From a virus: 20,117 nucleotides of DNA. A program made the translations under genes and the position numbers. The notes below the pieces were generated by a model that searched no databases, had not been told where the DNA came from, and worked only from the letters and a program-made list of their open reading frames with translations. Shown here in pieces: positions 3,290 to 18,982 of the stretch (the stretch's first letter is position 1; each line of letters opens with the position of its first letter). The DNA lies in IMG/VR virus record IMGVR_UViG_3300025645_000604, positions 1-20,117 of that record; one strand, 5' to 3'.

Positions 3290-4486
3290 CTAAGCCATAG
3301 TTATTGCCTTTACTACGCCTCCGCTATCTTTGAATGATAGTGCTCCAGTTGCTGAGTTAACAAATAAGCTCAAGTTTTCCGCAGAAGCTGACGCTATCGG
3401 GTCTAATCTGACCTGTTTTAGCCACGCGATATTAAAGCCTCTTGTAGATATCCCTAAGTCTTGGGTTCCGCTAGCGGGTCTAAGTGCGTAGTTTTTGGTT
3501 GAGTTCTCAAGAACTAACCTTTCTGCTGAATTGGATACCCATTGGTGAGCGTAGTCCCCTTCAACACCCCATTGCACTGTTGTTAAGCTAGATGATGCAT
3601 ATCCCTTTGGCGCACCTACTGTACCAACCCAGCTAAGTGGAACGCCAACCATTGGTTTACTGGCTCCAAATATAGCTCTTGAGGTAAATGCGGATTCACC
3701 TCCGACTAATACTTTACCAGCCGCGGGTGCGTACAACGTGTATCCTACCGCTTGAGTAGTCCAAAAGGCGTAATTTCCAGTGGCGCCCTTTGTTTGGTTG
3801 TGAACTTTAATACCAAACTGATTCGATACTGCGTCAAATCTACCGAGCGAATCAAGGTCTTTAGCTTCAAAGTGGAATAGTTCACCTACAGTGGACGCTG
3901 CACCTGTAAGAGTAGGCCAACTGATGTATCCGCCCCAAGTCGCAATGCTCCCCTCACCCGAAAATTTAGCTCTGTTCTGATAACTGAACTGGTGTGACTG
4001 AGCGTGAGTTCCTGCTATTTCTGTTGTCGAATCGAATGTACCGTAAGTACCACTATCTGTAGCATTGCTAATAATTGTTCTGTCAGCAAATGCGTGGCAG
4101 TCTGTTAGCGTGGTTAGTGTGCGAGCCGTTACAAATGCGTCTCTTAGTGCTGCACCAGTTATATGCGTTGGGCCAGCTACGAAACGTTCAAACCTCGGAG
4201 CTAAAGGTACATATGACGTAAAGTCTATAGAACTTGCGGGCTTACTAAAAGCTTTCAAAGCATCCAAACGTTGCGATGCGATAGCCGTGTCAGGTAGGCC
4301 GTTTGGCGTGATACCTGCATCAGCTAATAACGCGGTGTCGAAGCCCTCGTGGTCATTCGCCCAATCTGCATTTAACGGTGTGCCGTCGCGAGCGCCGGGG
4401 ACCGTCTCGTTTTTAAACGACCCGAATGGGTAATCCGTGTCGGCCGCATTAGCGCGAGGGGTGAATCGATCGAATATTTTTAACAT
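3290..4486 (-). CDS. Tail fibre / receptor-binding protein 2 (398 aa)
   Basis: Residues 1-85 are a near-copy of the N-terminus of the fibre at 4539-6767 (MLKI..FTPRA..AD..YP.GSFK, PGARDGTPL, ND.EGF..AL.ADAG, SQRL.ALK.FSKP), so this is the part that attaches the fibre to the baseplate. The remainder is unrelated: Ser/Thr/Gly-rich beta structure ending in LSLFVNSATGALSFKDSGGVVKAI, a C-terminus typical of phage tail fibres whose last strands contact the receptor or aid trimerisation. The start ATG has the Shine-Dalgarno GGAG 9 nt upstream. It is the last gene of the tail operon, stopping just before the terminator at 3256. No chaperone gene follows. Confidence 0.8.
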   Translation of the reverse strand: MLKIFDRFTPRANAADTDYPFGSFKNETVPGARDGTPLNADWANDHEGFDTALLADAGITPNGLPDTAIASQRLDALKAFSKPASSIDFTSYVPLAPRFERFVAGPTHITGAALRDAFVTARTLTTLTDCHAFADRTIISNATDSGTYGTFDSTTEIAGTHAQSHQFSYQNRAKFSGEGSIATWGGYISWPTLTGAASTVGELFHFEAKDLDSLGRFDAVSNQFGIKVHNQTKGATGNYAFWTTQAVGYTLYAPAAGKVLVGGESAFTSRAIFGASKPMVGVPLSWVGTVGAPKGYASSSLTTVQWGVEGDYAHQWVSNSAERLVLENSTKNYALRPASGTQDLGISTRGFNIAWLKQVRLDPIASASAENLSLFVNSATGALSFKDSGGVVKAITMA

Positions 4487-4538: not shown

Positions 4539-6767
4539 CTAAACGAACGCTACGTCTGACAAGTCAATTGTGTCGAGTGATAGCGAAACGGTGAGCGCTG
4601 GAATGTTAAAACCGTAACAATTCCCGTCAACCCCGATGTATAAGTTTGCAACGCCTGACGGTAGACCAGTAGCAGCCAGACAGGTAACTGTTTTAATTTT
4701 AACATTAGTCGGGCGTAAATGCTTCGGTAATTGCATGAACGGGTTACCTTCGGGCGATGTCGCGCCGTCGAAGTGTACTTTACCCGCCAACTTAAACACC
4801 TTGATAGTCGGGCGTGACGTTACACCAAAACCATTGCGCATCCAGTTAGTCGGAACGCTTTCGAATGGTTGCGACTCGCTGTCATCTAAACGATGCAATG
4901 CGCCCACAAGTGATTCAGACCAACCAAGACCAAGCATCATCGCAGCATATGGTGTCGGGTGAATATTATCGACAACCATTGAGTCAGTTTGTACACCCGT
5001 TACGTTAGCGCTTAACCAGCTAGCAGTTAATGCGCCTTGGTTTTTAATCGATTGCAAGTTAATTAAACCGCCAACCGAAGCAACAGCACGTATTAATAAT
5101 GCTCGATACGTATAGCCTATTTGGTTATTTGCTGTATTTTGGCCGCCCGTTTGCCCATTGGCGTTGGCCTCGGCAAGCGAATAAAACTGTGTAGGTATTC
5201 CCACTATTGGGGTCATGCCTACCGACTTAGCGTAAGTGCAGATATCGATAATTGTCTGCGAAAAACTAGCGAAACTAGTAGACCCTTGGATATCGTTAAC
5301 ACCAACTTGAACAAGGCAATAATCGTAGCCTACACCAATTGCTTGCAATCGTGCGTACTGTTGCGTCGCCAACTCACCAGCCACTGACAGGTTATTTAAC
5401 TCAGCTAACTGCAAGCCTTGAGACTGTAAAATGCTGCTCATAAGTCTGTACGGTGAATACTGCACATCGTTGTCACTAATTGAATCACCTAGCGCAACGA
5501 TACGTAACGGTTTGCTACCACCTTTCGAGTTTGTGATCACACTGCTAAACTGACTAACCGACGTTGTGCCATTTATCTGACTAGTACCGAACATAGCACC
5601 CGTGATATTTGAGCGTGTGTTGTATGTTCCAATAACTAGGCCGTTACATAAAACACTATACTTACGTGATGAGATTATACGCACGCTCATCAATGAGTTA
5701 TTGAACAAGTCGCGTTGCTGGTTCATTAACGTATATTGAACGCCAGTAACCAATGGTGATAAACCAGCCGTTGAGTCAACGAGCATTACAGCTTGAGTGC
5801 CGCTGTTTTGTGAGTAATACGAATGCCCGTTAGCAGTCAACACACCAGCGAAGAATATACCCGGAGTTGGGTTAGATATTAAAGCAAAAGTCTCGTCGCC
5901 GACACGAGCCGCTTTTACTGCCGCGATATCTTTACCTGTTCCGCTAAACGATATCGAATCTGACACAGTGGTAATTGGTGTGATCGTATTGCTTGGGTCA
6001 GCTAAATCTATGACAACGAAATTATTACCCACTAGTGTTCGAGGCTCAGAATAAACGCCTTGACCTTGTGTGATGTTTGACAAATTAGATGATGCTAACG
6101 CACCTGTGTTTGGTTGCGTGTAATTACTAAAACCAAAGTTTTGTTGTATCTTTAAAATCTGACGATTAGATCGGACATTATTATTGGCCAATGGGCTGTT
6201 AGTTGTGCCGCCACTTGATATAACCCGAATATACACACCTTCATCGGCCACAATCTCAATTGGCGACGTGGCGGGCGTTGGGTCATCGCCGTTAATAAAA
6301 TAACCGCCGGTAACCGTTTTCGGTAAATACATCTTACCGCCGCCAACCGAATTTAAATATGCAAAATATGACGCAAACGCAGTTAAGTTGTTGGTCGTGG
6401 TTAACGATCCGTCATCGTCATCTTTACCGCCGAAGTCGAGAATACTCAACGTATCGAGTGAACGACTTTGTAAGTCACGCTCAACGCCCGTTATAACCTC
6501 GTTAATTACCGAAGTTGACGGTTTACTGAATAGTTTCAACGCCTGTAAACGTTGCGATACAAGTGCCGTATCAGGTTGACCACTTGCTACTAGTCCAGCG
6601 TCAGCCATTAGCGCCGAACTGAAACCTTCTAGGTCATTACCGCTACGCGACGTCAACGGTGTACCGTCACGTGCGCCCGGTGTCGACTCGTCTTTGAATG
6701 ACCCATAAGGGTATTCACTGTCGGCGGGTAATGCGCGCGGTGTAAATTCGTTGTAAATTTTTAACAT
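4539..6767 (-). CDS. Tail spike/fibre with beta-helix-like stalk and SGNH (GDSL) hydrolase domain (742 aa)
   Basis: Residues 1-85 form the baseplate-anchoring domain shared with the fibre at 3290. Residues about 105-165 (LDFGGKDDDDGSLTTTNNLTAF...GGGKMYLPK...GGYFING) resemble the opening of pectate-lyase-fold tail spikes. Residues about 420-625 are an SGNH hydrolase: block I GDSIS with nucleophile Ser429, Gly464 in SVAGE, block III GVND with Asn491, and block V DNIHP with Asp600 and His603. All four catalytic blocks are intact. Such domains remove acetyl or other ester groups from host capsule or O-antigen, so this is probably a receptor-modifying spike. About 115 residues of beta structure follow. 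The start at 6767 is 3 bp after the DUF2612 stop. Confidence 0.88.
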   Translation of the reverse strand: MLKIYNEFTPRALPADSEYPYGSFKDESTPGARDGTPLTSRSGNDLEGFSSALMADAGLVASGQPDTALVSQRLQALKLFSKPSTSVINEVITGVERDLQSRSLDTLSILDFGGKDDDDGSLTTTNNLTAFASYFAYLNSVGGGKMYLPKTVTGGYFINGDDPTPATSPIEIVADEGVYIRVISSGGTTNSPLANNNVRSNRQILKIQQNFGFSNYTQPNTGALASSNLSNITQGQGVYSEPRTLVGNNFVVIDLADPSNTITPITTVSDSISFSGTGKDIAAVKAARVGDETFALISNPTPGIFFAGVLTANGHSYYSQNSGTQAVMLVDSTAGLSPLVTGVQYTLMNQQRDLFNNSLMSVRIISSRKYSVLCNGLVIGTYNTRSNITGAMFGTSQINGTTSVSQFSSVITNSKGGSKPLRIVALGDSISDNDVQYSPYRLMSSILQSQGLQLAELNNLSVAGELATQQYARLQAIGVGYDYCLVQVGVNDIQGSTSFASFSQTIIDICTYAKSVGMTPIVGIPTQFYSLAEANANGQTGGQNTANNQIGYTYRALLIRAVASVGGLINLQSIKNQGALTASWLSANVTGVQTDSMVVDNIHPTPYAAMMLGLGWSESLVGALHRLDDSESQPFESVPTNWMRNGFGVTSRPTIKVFKLAGKVHFDGATSPEGNPFMQLPKHLRPTNVKIKTVTCLAATGLPSGVANLYIGVDGNCYGFNIPALTVSLSLDTIDLSDVAFV

Positions 6768-8952: not shown

Positions 8953-9614
8953 GATGGATTACCCGATGATTCAGTCACAGGCGTTGTACCTGCTTTATAT
9001 GTTCCGGCTGCGTGTTTGTGGTCGTCGCCAACGTTAATACCGTTATGTGTGAATGACGGGGATTGAACATTAAACGATGTGAAGTCACCTTGAAAACCAC
9101 CCTCCGCGCTAATGGTCAACGACCCGATTGAATTGGCCGCTGTAATCGTGCCGTCTTTCTTCAACCAGATAAAATGCGAGCCGTCTTTATTACGGATGCG
9201 AATACCGTCGTTACCGAAACCTGTGATCACATTAGGTTGTGAACGGACGCCAGGCATAAAAACAGCGTCGCTCATGTCGTGAAAACGCATGATAGGATTA
9301 TTACCGACACCACCCGTTGTTTTCCAACCGTCAATACAACGTTGCGAGAAAAGTATTACACCTTCGTCACCCACGTTTATTTCGTACTCGAGGAAGAACT
9401 CAGCACCGCCGCCAAAATGGACAGGTACTTCGATTAGTGGCGTGGGTGTAAATATCTTACCGTTGACGTCCTTACGGACAACTCCGATTTGTATTTGGGC
9501 GTGTTGAGTTACCGGGTCAAATGCTATGACATGACCCGGTATTGACGTCGCAACGTTTTTCATCATTTCAAAAAACGAGCGTTTCGTATATTCAGTAAAC
9601 GATGCAGTATTCAT
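8949..9614 (-). CDS. Baseplate spike / membrane-puncturing protein (Gp138/gpV-like, 221 aa)
   Basis: Central spike at the tail tip. The N-terminal part (about 15-110) has the OB-fold layout of Gp138-type proteins, with VATSIPGHVIAFDPVTQHAQIQIGV, PTPLIEVPVHFGGGAEFFLEYEINVGDEGVILFSQR. The middle (GNDGIRIRNKDGSHFIWLKKDGTIT) becomes a triple-stranded beta-helix. The end holds HNGINVGDDHKH with the HxH pair (His199, His201) that binds a metal ion at the apex in P2 gpV and phi92 Gp138. The start is set at 9614: an upstream in-frame start at 9647 would begin inside the terminator hairpin. The Shine-Dalgarno is weak. It follows a terminator and the tRNA-like region, unlike its tightly overlapped downstream partners. 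Confidence 0.85.
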   Translation of the reverse strand: MNTASFTEYTKRSFFEMMKNVATSIPGHVIAFDPVTQHAQIQIGVVRKDVNGKIFTPTPLIEVPVHFGGGAEFFLEYEINVGDEGVILFSQRCIDGWKTTGGVGNNPIMRFHDMSDAVFMPGVRSQPNVITGFGNDGIRIRNKDGSHFIWLKKDGTITAANSIGSLTISAEGGFQGDFTSFNVQSPSFTHNGINVGDDHKHAAGTYKAGTTPVTESSGNPS

Positions 9615-9621
9615 ATCGTCA

Positions 9622-9630
9622 AGTGTAACA
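9622..9630 (-). promoter_or_regulatory. Weak candidate extended -10 after the terminator
   Basis: On the minus strand, TG-T-TACACT (9630-9622), directly after the terminator T-run. It could restart transcription for the spike gene, but the expected start falls at about 9615, leaving almost no leader for the ATG at 9614. Low support. Confidence 0.2.
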
Positions 9631-9631
9631 C

Positions 9632-9656
9632 AAAAAAAAGCCCTCACATAGAGGGC
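9632..9656 (-). terminator. Intrinsic terminator inside the baseplate operon
   Basis: On the minus strand, GCCCTC (9656-9651), a five-base loop and GAGGGC (9645-9640), followed by eight T (9639-9632). This is a textbook rho-independent terminator. It lies between the tRNA-like region and the spike gene, so most transcripts from the hub side should end here unless antitermination or a new promoter operates. Confidence 0.9.
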
Positions 9657-9694
9657 AAATAACGAGGAAGTCGAACGAGGGATTGCAAATTAGT

Positions 9695-9789
9695 GGGGTC
9701 GTCTAGGGTTCGAACCTAGGTCTACAGTTTTAGACGCTGCGCTTTGCCTGCTTTGGACTCTAGAAACCCTCCACTCAAGCTAACGACCC
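9695..9789 (-). tRNA. tRNA-like element 1, aberrant interior (95 nt)
   Basis: On the minus strand there is a perfect 7-bp acceptor stem (GGGTCGT 9789-9783 with ACGACCC 9702-9696) and a perfect T arm (CTAGG-TTCGAAC-CCTAG, 9719-9703). CCA is not encoded. Folded as an ordinary tRNA, the D stem GCTT/AAGC encloses an oversized 32-nt loop containing GTGG, and an anticodon arm GCAGC-GTCTAAA-ACTGT (one C-A mismatch) would read anticodon CTA, a UAG suppressor. Folded as a class II tRNA, the D and anticodon stems become poor. The anticodon is therefore uncertain. It may be a functional odd tRNA, a decaying tRNA gene, or a tRNA mimic. Confidence 0.55.
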
Positions 9790-9799
9790 ATATTTTAAA

Positions 9800-9893
9800 C
9801 GCCTCGGTTACGTCTCGCGACGTTACGTGGCTGCAAGGTGTCTGTGCCTTGCCACATGCGGACCACCTCCAGTTATGGAATGAACCATCGAAT
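9800..9893 (-). ncRNA. Structured spacer RNA between the two tRNA-like elements
   Basis: No ORF of useful length. On the minus strand there are two good hairpins. The first has stem GTGG+CAAGG paired with CCTTG+CCAC (9 bp with a 3-nt bulge; 9855-9827). The second is ACGTC-GCGA-GACGT (9823-9810), with a GNRA tetraloop. A short GG-TTCATT-CC hairpin at about 9888-9875 resembles a T arm. The hairpins suggest a folded RNA transcribed leftward. Function unknown. Confidence 0.4.
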
Positions 9894-10005
9894 GTGATAT
9901 TACAGGATTCGAACCCGTGTCCACTTGTCTATAGGATATCGCGATCCAGACTAATGATATATCGCGTTTCAACTTTCGGCCTGATTACTGCTCGGTCAAA
10001 TATCA
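9894..10005 (-). tRNA. tRNA-like element 2, aberrant interior (112 nt)
   Basis: On the minus strand, acceptor TGATATT (10005-9999) pairs perfectly with AATATCA (9901-9895), and the helix extends two further pairs outside (TGTGATATT / AATATCACA). The T arm is ACGGG-TTCGAAT-CCTGT (9918-9902) with one G-T pair. The position after the acceptor is T, as in tRNAs. The interior is too long (about 90 nt before the T arm) and does not fold into standard D and anticodon arms. Instead it holds GTCT-GGAT...ATCC-(TAT)-AGAC, an 8-bp hairpin with a 3-nt bulge, and a possible GCGAT/ATCGC stem. No anticodon can be named. CCA is not encoded. Confidence 0.45.
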
Positions 10006-10015
10006 CATTGTTAAA

Positions 10016-10244
10016 GTGTTTTTGACGGCTTCAACGTCCACTTACTGGGCTTGTTATGGTGGTATCCCTCATTTATACGGAAAGCCATTATCCATGCGCA
10101 TTTAAAACACTTCAACAATATAATAAACCGCGTGTGCGGTAACGGCTCTTTGCCAGTCAAGATTTTAAAACACCAACAACAGTCGGTTAATGTTTACCGC
10201 GTGTGCGGTAACTTGTCTGAGGCATTAACAATATCTCATCGTGA
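10016..10244. other. Non-coding region with repeated hairpin unit
   Basis: About 230 bp between tRNA-like element 2 and the stop of the hub gene, without a credible ORF on either strand. It contains two copies of a hairpin unit (ACCGCGTGTGCGGTAAC at 10127-10143 and 10196-10212), each preceded by TTTAAAACAC (10101-10110 and 10164-10173). It looks like the 5' part of the leftward non-coding transcript that ends at the terminator at 9632. Confidence 0.5.
10127..10212. repeat. Direct repeat of a 17-bp hairpin motif
   Basis: The 17-mer ACCGCGTGTGCGGTAAC is at 10127-10143 and 10196-10212 (offset 69). Each copy is itself a stem-loop, ACCGC-GTGT-GCGGT. The copy at 10127, read on the minus strand, is followed by TTTATTAT, so it might end transcription weakly. 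Confidence 0.9.
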
Positions 10245-11114
10245 CTATGGTGTCAACTCTTTATATCCTGTTATTTTAGTCGACCAAGCGTCGCCCCACG
10301 TGTCACCCGTATGCGTAAGGCGAAATATTTTATATTCACCAACGCCAGCCGATTTGGGTATGTCCACAAAATACAAATTGCTGAAGTTGAATGTGGCTAA
10401 ATCCGACTCGATGCGATACATACCACCAATGTGTAGTTTGGGATTTAAACGAACCGTTACGTCCACGCCGACTTCGGTGATTTCTGGTATGCCTTCCATC
10501 CCCGTGAACTGCGACACGACTTGTACTTCACCTTGACGTGAATAACCTTTACGTACCACGACCATTCGTTCATTTTCAATCACGTAATCGAAGTTATGCG
10601 CTTGTGCTAGCTCGTCCATATACACACGCGGGTCGCCGCTGAGGGCATAACCGAACGCATACGGATCGATATCTGCAAATTGCGCATCATCCATTACAAT
10701 CGGATAACCCATTGCTGTGACACACGAGCGGATCAACTCTGTTACTTTGGCGTTTTTACCGAGTGTTTCGTTTATCTGCGTTTGGTCGTCGACAAGTTTA
10801 CCGCCGCGACAAATTAACCGTGTTATCGTATCCGGTCCAACTCTCTCACGTAGAACGTTGTTAATTGTGCCTGTGAACAACGTATCGATTGAATCGGCAT
10901 AACCGCCACGGAACGACATTACAGTGCCACGAGTGAACGCCTTGTTCGCTGTGTCCGTACTGATATTATATAACGCTACGTCGGCGTAACTTGTATACCC
11001 GCCAAAGTCGTGTAATATCTCAAACGTACATTTAAATTGTCGCCCTTCGGTTTCCTCGATGAACGGTTCACCGTCAAGCGTCATTGACCAGCGTCGGTTA
11101 TTATAACTACTCAT
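10245..11114 (-). CDS. Baseplate hub protein, gpD/gp27-like (289 aa)
   Basis: A tail-tip hub protein that forms the ring around the spike. The sequence shows the usual pattern of phage late-control gpD-type hubs: a beta-rich N-terminal domain (RRWSMTLDGEPFIEE...FKCTFEILHDFGGYTSYADVALYNIS), FRGGYADSIDTLFTGTINNVLRERVGPDTITRLICRGG (about 68-105), a helical insert with VTELIRSCVTAMGYPIV, and FDYVIENERMVVVRKGY. The end (LTHTGDTWGDAWSTKITGYKEL) is the terminal strand motif of this family. The start overlaps the plug gene by 8 bp. It is separated from its partner spike gene by about 600 bp of structured non-coding DNA, which is unusual. Confidence 0.85.
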   Translation of the reverse strand: MSSYNNRRWSMTLDGEPFIEETEGRQFKCTFEILHDFGGYTSYADVALYNISTDTANKAFTRGTVMSFRGGYADSIDTLFTGTINNVLRERVGPDTITRLICRGGKLVDDQTQINETLGKNAKVTELIRSCVTAMGYPIVMDDAQFADIDPYAFGYALSGDPRVYMDELAQAHNFDYVIENERMVVVRKGYSRQGEVQVVSQFTGMEGIPEITEVGVDVTVRLNPKLHIGGMYRIESDLATFNFSNLYFVDIPKSAGVGEYKIFRLTHTGDTWGDAWSTKITGYKELTP

Positions 11115-13310: not shown

Positions 13311-13338
13311 TTGACACAACCGTCAATAGTGTTAATAT
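13311..13338 (+). promoter_or_regulatory. Composite promoter/operator, site 3 (TTGAC-N6-GTCAA)
   Basis: -35 TTGACA (13311-13316), 16-bp spacer, extended -10 TG-T-TAATAT (13330-13338). The inverted repeat TTGAC-ACAACC-GTCAA is at 13311-13326. The 28 bases 13306-13333 are identical to 16718-16745. Drives the + cluster 13386-14475. Confidence 0.75.
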
Positions 13339-16722: not shown

Positions 16723-16751
16723 TTGACACAACCGTCAATAGTGTTTAATAT
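16723..16751 (+). promoter_or_regulatory. Composite promoter/operator, site 4 (TTGAC-N6-GTCAA)
   Basis: -35 TTGACA (16723-16728), 17-bp spacer, -10 TAATAT (16746-16751). The inverted repeat TTGAC-ACAACC-GTCAA is at 16723-16738. Same 28-mer as site 3. Drives the genes at 16785 and 16928. Confidence 0.75.
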
Positions 16752-18954: not shown

Positions 18955-18982
18955 TTGACAACCGCGTCAATAGTGATACTAT
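18955..18982 (+). promoter_or_regulatory. Composite promoter/operator, site 5 (TTGAC-N6-GTCAA)
   Basis: -35 TTGACA (18955-18960), 16-bp spacer, extended -10 TG-A-TACTAT (18974-18982). The inverted repeat TTGAC-AACCGC-GTCAA is at 18955-18970. A small hairpin ACGACG...CGTCGT follows in the leader before the gene at 19035. Confidence 0.72.

Follow-up and report, generated by a model that had tools for sequence, protein, structure and literature searches.

A conserved noncoding unit between phage baseplate genes combines covarying structure, swapped modules and a complement of the 16S rRNA tail

The gap between two baseplate genes of this phage very probably holds a conserved noncoding RNA unit, and the comparison with related phages establishes a unit with promoter and terminator sequences, covarying structure, modules swapped between phages and a conserved complement of the 16S rRNA 3′ tail. 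The fuller interpretation, in which the unit would be a dedicated phage RNA gene with a conserved body, swapped modules, tRNA-derived domains and putative docking on the 16S tail, is one that we hold with about as much belief as doubt.

The window, that is the whole stretch of DNA that was analysed, comprises 20,117 nt of one strand (positions 1 to 20,117 of IMG/VR virus record IMGVR_UViG_3300025645_000604). In it, the gap 9632-10244 separates the baseplate hub gene from a gene in the baseplate-spike position, which had no PHROG match. Region 10256-9632 of the minus strand appears to be a noncoding transcription unit of its own, running from promoter to terminator, in which a promoter under a phage-wide operator would drive an RNA of about 590 nt. 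The features are as follows.

10245-11114, minus: baseplate hub gene, PHROG 196
10242-10256, minus: operator TTGAC-N6-GTCA holding the −35 box of the promoter; same promoter/operator in 15 relatives
10228-10256, minus: sigma-70-type promoter TTGACA-17-TATTGT, overlapping the hub stop codon
10119-10213, minus: domain d1, with CCGC hairpins 10196-10209 and 10127-10140 and a GGC-AAAGA-GCC hairpin 10144-10154; also in L002, L004, L005, L019, L032 and L088
10008-10118, minus: module A, with stem A (10104-10118 paired to 10008-10022) as its closing stem; its interior varies between phages
9891-10009, minus: module B, a tRNA-like element (10005-9894) capping an 11-bp stem (9999-10009 with 9891-9901)
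9860-9870, minus: GGAGGTGGTCC, complement of the 16S rRNA 3′ tail, the most conserved segment of the family
9801-9870, minus: core, with the 16S complement, an 8-nt-loop hairpin (9833-9852) and a tetraloop hairpin (9810-9823) in an outer stem; covariance model R1
9695-9789, minus: module D, a free-standing tRNA-like element, acceptor 9783-9789 with 9696-9702
9632-9656, minus: intrinsic terminator GCCCTCTATGTGAGGGC-T8, which L002 and L003 also keep
8949 to about 9617, minus: spike-position gene of the baseplate, by its position the homologue of CP-T1 gp60

The initial annotation had placed a structured region at 9632-10244; its terminator end stands, but the start lies slightly upstream, with the promoter over the hub stop codon (10256). 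The bulged hairpin, tetraloop hairpin, two CCGC hairpins and terminator that it listed are all present, the first two now backed by covariation, and its tRNA-like elements were found again, but the 16S-tail complement (9870-9860), which is conserved more than any other feature, had escaped it.

In front of the spike-position gene, a TACACT/TATACT-like box lies as close as about 8-12 nt to the ATG, and no clear Shine-Dalgarno sequence is present (9605-9632, minus strand); the relatives are alike in this, and the message of the gene may be leaderless. Elsewhere in the window, two tail-fibre-like genes (3290-4486 and 4539-6767) have nearly identical N-termini (MLKI[FY]...RA..AD..YP[FY]GSFK[ND]E..PGARDGTPL), the larger one with a weak GDSL-lipase match.

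Promoter and conserved body of the unit

In the 15 unit-bearing relatives, the promoter stands at the 5′ end of the unit and is directed inward, on whichever strand the unit lies, and we infer that the unit is transcribed from this predicted promoter. The operator motif TTGAC-N6-GTCA is enriched in the window (22 matches with at most one mismatch, versus 5.8 in shuffles with a maximum of 13) and common in the records of the phage group, where the reversed control is rare. Palindromic TTGAC-N6-GTCA(A) sites at 414-429, 2664-2678, 10242-10256, 13311-13326, 16723-16738 and 18955-18970 overlap −35 boxes, in the window and in related genomes alike, and would appear to form a phage regulon. The CCGC hairpin was also considered as a phage-wide operator and was rejected, being confined within the group to the unit.

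Relatives were gathered by the hub protein (24 loci, then 36) and by the spike protein (80), with L001 being the window's own region (100%). Their hub-spike gap holds 377-1114 nt of noncoding DNA, with the unit on the strand of the structural genes in L001-L005, L018 and L019 and on the opposite strand in L006-L010, L014-L017, L021, L022 and L057. The gap is nearly closed in L012, L013, L020, L054, L059, L062, L063 and L065, and in L011 the unit is replaced by a protein gene, whose product matched no Pfam family. The opposite-strand units of the L006-L017 clade (in L010, the hub-spike gap) resemble cassette arrays, in which modules are parted by near-identical, terminator-bearing repeats of about 110 bp.

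The predicted RNA would consist of a conserved body, namely d1, the closing stem A and the core with two covarying hairpins, and of interchangeable modules held in conserved stems. The CCGC hairpin of d1 shows compensatory changes by eye (ACCGC/GCGGT versus ATCGC/GCGAT), and in stem A, compared over six sequences, 4 of the 14 pairs are changed on both sides, with a covariation of 0.290 versus 0.192 ± 0.036. BoxA-type antitermination was considered and set aside, as CTTTAACAA in stem A resembles rrn boxA yet forms one side of a stem that covaries (L003 has TTCGCAA there), and the boxA-like sequence is therefore unconstrained.

The core lies 3′ of module B and runs in the order GGAGGTGRTCC, a hairpin with an 8-nt loop and, within an outer stem, a second hairpin whose loop has 4 nt (mostly GNRA) or more. 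Across 12 cores, 96.7% of the pair cells are paired and 6 of 14 pairs carry changes in both partners. The covariation score reaches 0.307, whereas shuffles score 0.138 ± 0.022 and sliding the partner yields no more than 0.059; the alignment was fitted to its own model, which favours the structure, and the controls are still far lower. Covariance model R1, built from 8 cores, recovers L014 (E 0.0018) and L057 (E 0.0048) at the expected place among 327 kb, matches L088 and L021 more weakly, and gave no convincing new member on 46 additional loci. The core also occurs away from the baseplate genes: an exact search with its first hairpin located it in other gene neighbourhoods near terminase genes in L029 and L032, a search with d1 added L088, and in these three phages it sits immediately upstream of a small gene. 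A nucleotide search with the core against cultivated phages found no match. A bacterial origin was rejected as well, the sole genome-contig match to the core hairpin being a chance one inside a cupin-like gene.

The tRNA-like elements and the interchange of modules

Element D, of about 94-95 nt, has a 7-bp acceptor stem (GGGTCGT/ACGACCC) and the T arm CTAGG-TTCGAAC-CCTAG; element B, of about 111-112 nt, has the T arm ACGGG-TTCGAAT-CCTGT and an acceptor stem of 11 uninterrupted pairs, AATGTGATATT/AATATCACATT. Both carry the acceptor stem and the TTCRA-looped T arm that characterize RF00005, and neither encodes CCA. ARAGORN called no tRNA gene and no tmRNA in the region, an Rfam search of the region returned no family at gathering score, and the RF00005 cloverleaf model, whose cut-off is 29 bits, scored the identical region of G001 at about 12 bits. 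When the noncoding units and gaps of the phage group were scanned for elements that combine a 7-bp acceptor with a perfect T arm whose loop reads TTCRANN, seven were found versus a mean of 0.01 in shuffled copies, so such elements are not chance; enlarged aberrant ones occur again in L010 (94 and 99 nt). One further match of the scan, at 3584-3686 of L022, lies outside the unit and is probably chance. The folding energies of the separate elements are unremarkable against shuffles (z −1.16 and −0.03), and the support therefore rests on comparison; their interiors are common to no close relative, and the support from covariation covers other parts of the unit. Judged by sequence, the top halves of both elements are of tRNA origin. 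An amber-suppressor reading of D, in which some 21 nt count as a D-loop insertion and the anticodon is CUA, was discarded, as TAG is an ordinary stop in the phage and ARAGORN makes no call.

The stem of module B (AATGTGA/TCACATT) recurs with varied contents, which are tRNA-like in the window, a weak tRNA-Arg in L002, and non-tRNA hairpins in L003, L004, L005, L019, L032 and L088. Canonical, free-standing tRNAs with CCA occur in L002 (Ser-GCT, at the place of module D) and L014 (Asp-GTC), and all RF00005 matches above the cut-off in the 21 records searched lie within the unit. Interiors appear in new combinations, shared by L002 with L005, L004 with L015, L014 with L019, and L002 with L057; the last two also have an extra 5′ domain in common, for which the search pattern matched L057 only, being one base too strict for L002. 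L002 has a hub protein 98% identical to that of the window, and the tRNA-Arg and tRNA-Ser calls in its two places do not align with the window elements. Therefore, the latter are not decayed alleles of one tRNA pair, and replacement fits the difference between L002 and the window better than a single ancestral pair that eroded. For the 5′ strand of the stem around module B (9999-10009) two partners are available, its own 3′ strand and a TATTATA immediately before stem A (10107-10140); the minimum-energy fold picks the latter, and this alternative pairing could possibly be a switch or only a chance of the fold.

The two elements of the initial annotation, with their acceptor stems and T arms, are hence borne out, and its description of abnormal interiors without a normal anticodon agrees with the ARAGORN and RF00005 results and with the recurrence of enlarged interiors in L010. 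Its suggestion of non-decoding RNAs made from tRNA top halves fits the rebuilt interiors and the missing anticodon, but the elements look like modules of one larger conserved RNA and not like two free RNAs. The processing by RNase P and RNase Z that it envisaged loses ground, since plain maturation of B is disfavoured by its position at the tip of a longer stem and neither element encodes CCA.

The 16S rRNA complement and the readings of the unit

The strongest complement to the 16S 3′ tail in the window is GGAGGUGGUCC (9870-9860; −22.8 kcal/mol with the standard tail sequence). The motif GRGGUGRUY is near-invariant: 17 aligned units and L088 retain it amid surroundings that turn over, and its two internal variable positions are A or G opposite U in 16S rRNA, so that pairing is preserved. 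In L088 and L032, whose flanking proteins are nearly the same, the core hairpins differ, and GGUGAUCCGU is kept in both. Pairing of GGAGGUGRUC with the 16S rRNA 3′ tail would most likely be the use of this segment, by which the RNA would dock on 30S subunits; docking on the 30S anti-Shine-Dalgarno through the putative complement is proposed tentatively, at somewhat less than an even chance.

The same GGAGGUG also resembles a strong Shine-Dalgarno sequence with an AUG 8 nt downstream in the window, and could serve a short leader ORF, which would turn the RNA into the leader of a regulated message. The AUG recurs in L002 and L004, a GUG is found in L003, L005, L019, L029 and L032, and the small gene of L029, L032 and L088 lies directly 3′ of the core. 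This reading is nevertheless very unlikely, given that start codon, frame and length vary (L003 would have the four codons of GUG-GCA-AGG-CAC-UGA), that 4-nt and 6-nt loops alternate within the would-be ORF, that L006, L014 and L057 offer no start at usable spacing, and that in the window the terminator ends the unit before the next gene.

Other readings start from the tRNA-like elements. The unit could be what is left of a phage tRNA cluster, with captured spacer tRNAs in decay and the remainder mostly spacer, for which speak the genuine CCA tRNAs at the locus in L002 and L014 beside aberrant ones without CCA or normal arms; as no close relative has these two elements, erosion after replacement may have affected the interiors. 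The local decay of tRNA genes, offered by the initial annotation as the simpler alternative, found no support, because the tRNAs of the nearest relative, L002, in both places fail to align with the window elements. Acceptors and T arms are moreover intact with interiors enlarged, again so in L010, and the conservation and covariation seen in the core, stem A and promoter are not those of mere spacer, so that we consider a tRNA remnant unlikely, if worth keeping in mind. Phages are also on record as evading tRNA-cutting defences with their own tRNAs (PMC11555353), and the modules might be decoys or replacement tRNAs against such host systems (PrrC, retron-Eco7 PtuAB and others), with an arms race driving their turnover. 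High turnover of modules and an own promoter are typical of accessory defence-related loci, but the anticodon arm, which such nucleases recognise or cut, is what the elements miss, and many modules in the same stems bear no tRNA likeness at all; we rate this reading as distinctly improbable.

Returning to the dedicated RNA gene, we propose that the two window modules would descend from captured tRNAs, with acceptor and T arm retained and the decoding half lost or rebuilt. They might make the RNA more stable, bring in factors that handle tRNAs, or offer a tRNA shape next to a docked ribosome. An extension that we think unlikely has the RNA mimic mRNA and tRNA together: its GGAGGUGRUC would sit on the anti-Shine-Dalgarno of the 30S subunit while the molecule also displays tRNA-shaped modules, and host ribosomes would so be occupied, marked or redirected in the course of infection.

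Distribution among phages and relation to known RNAs

At the corresponding position, the V. cholerae phages CP-T1 and 138 carry a gap of 325 nt, that of CP-T1 with the operator TTGACATGCTGGTCA on the opposite strand, and noncoding gaps with TTGAC-N6-GTCA promoters are found there in Klebsiella phage RCIP0015 (L183), Pantoea phage AAM22 (L181) and the uncultivated L145, L157, L158 and L177. In each of these last four, a shared CCGGGAAGAGACCGG hairpin precedes a variable module closed by a stem, and a terminator comes after the module. The 16S complement is unrecognisable in all of these, the units of CP-T1 and 138 and those of the enteric phages included, and therefore these gaps may be cousins in position alone. 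For CP-T1 and 138, the paper on their group gives no tRNAs, and the words promoter, intergenic, noncoding and terminator do not occur in it (PMC3391216).

The best reading is of a modular phage RNA outside the known Rfam families, akin in kind to GOLLD and ROOL and, by the Rfam models, a member of neither: these models matched neither the window region, with hits allowed to E 10, nor the relatives, at gathering score. In tmRNA, YrlA and other tRNA-mimic RNAs, acceptor and T arm are kept and the decoding half is replaced, and the window elements are alike in this; the tmRNA model (RF00023) matched at 17.2 bits versus a cut-off of 47, at the T-arm tip only, with no match to the tag ORF part of the model. 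Phage tRNA genes are likewise tRNA elements in a phage locus, with genuine tRNAs at this very locus in L002 and L014, whereas the window elements are without normal D or anticodon arms and lie within a larger RNA unit. GOLLD and ROOL are large structured RNAs of phages and prophages with a variable linker, which tRNAs can occupy in GOLLD; GOLLD lies near tRNA islands, ROOL often does, and GOLLD is reported to pull down ribosomes (PMC12286853). The setting of the window RNA is similar to theirs, but compared with GOLLD it is smaller, has a 16S-tail complement and swappable, stem-closed modules, and is not known to form oligomers, a multimeric cage of RNA only being a hallmark of GOLLD. From ROOL it differs in the order of elements.

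Large phage RNAs such as GOLLD and ROOL are thus already known without their function being so, and the unit described here adds a family outside Rfam that is small enough for practical work, with its most conserved segment pointing to a testable partner, the 16S rRNA tail. Because natural versions with genuine tRNAs, with aberrant tRNA-like elements and with none share one locus, one can test directly why phages join tRNA parts to large RNAs, and bench work is possible since cultivated phages (V. cholerae CP-T1 and 138, Klebsiella RCIP0015 and Pantoea AAM22) have noncoding units with the same promoter type in the same place. If the proposal is true, the unit may represent a new viral way of handling host ribosomes.
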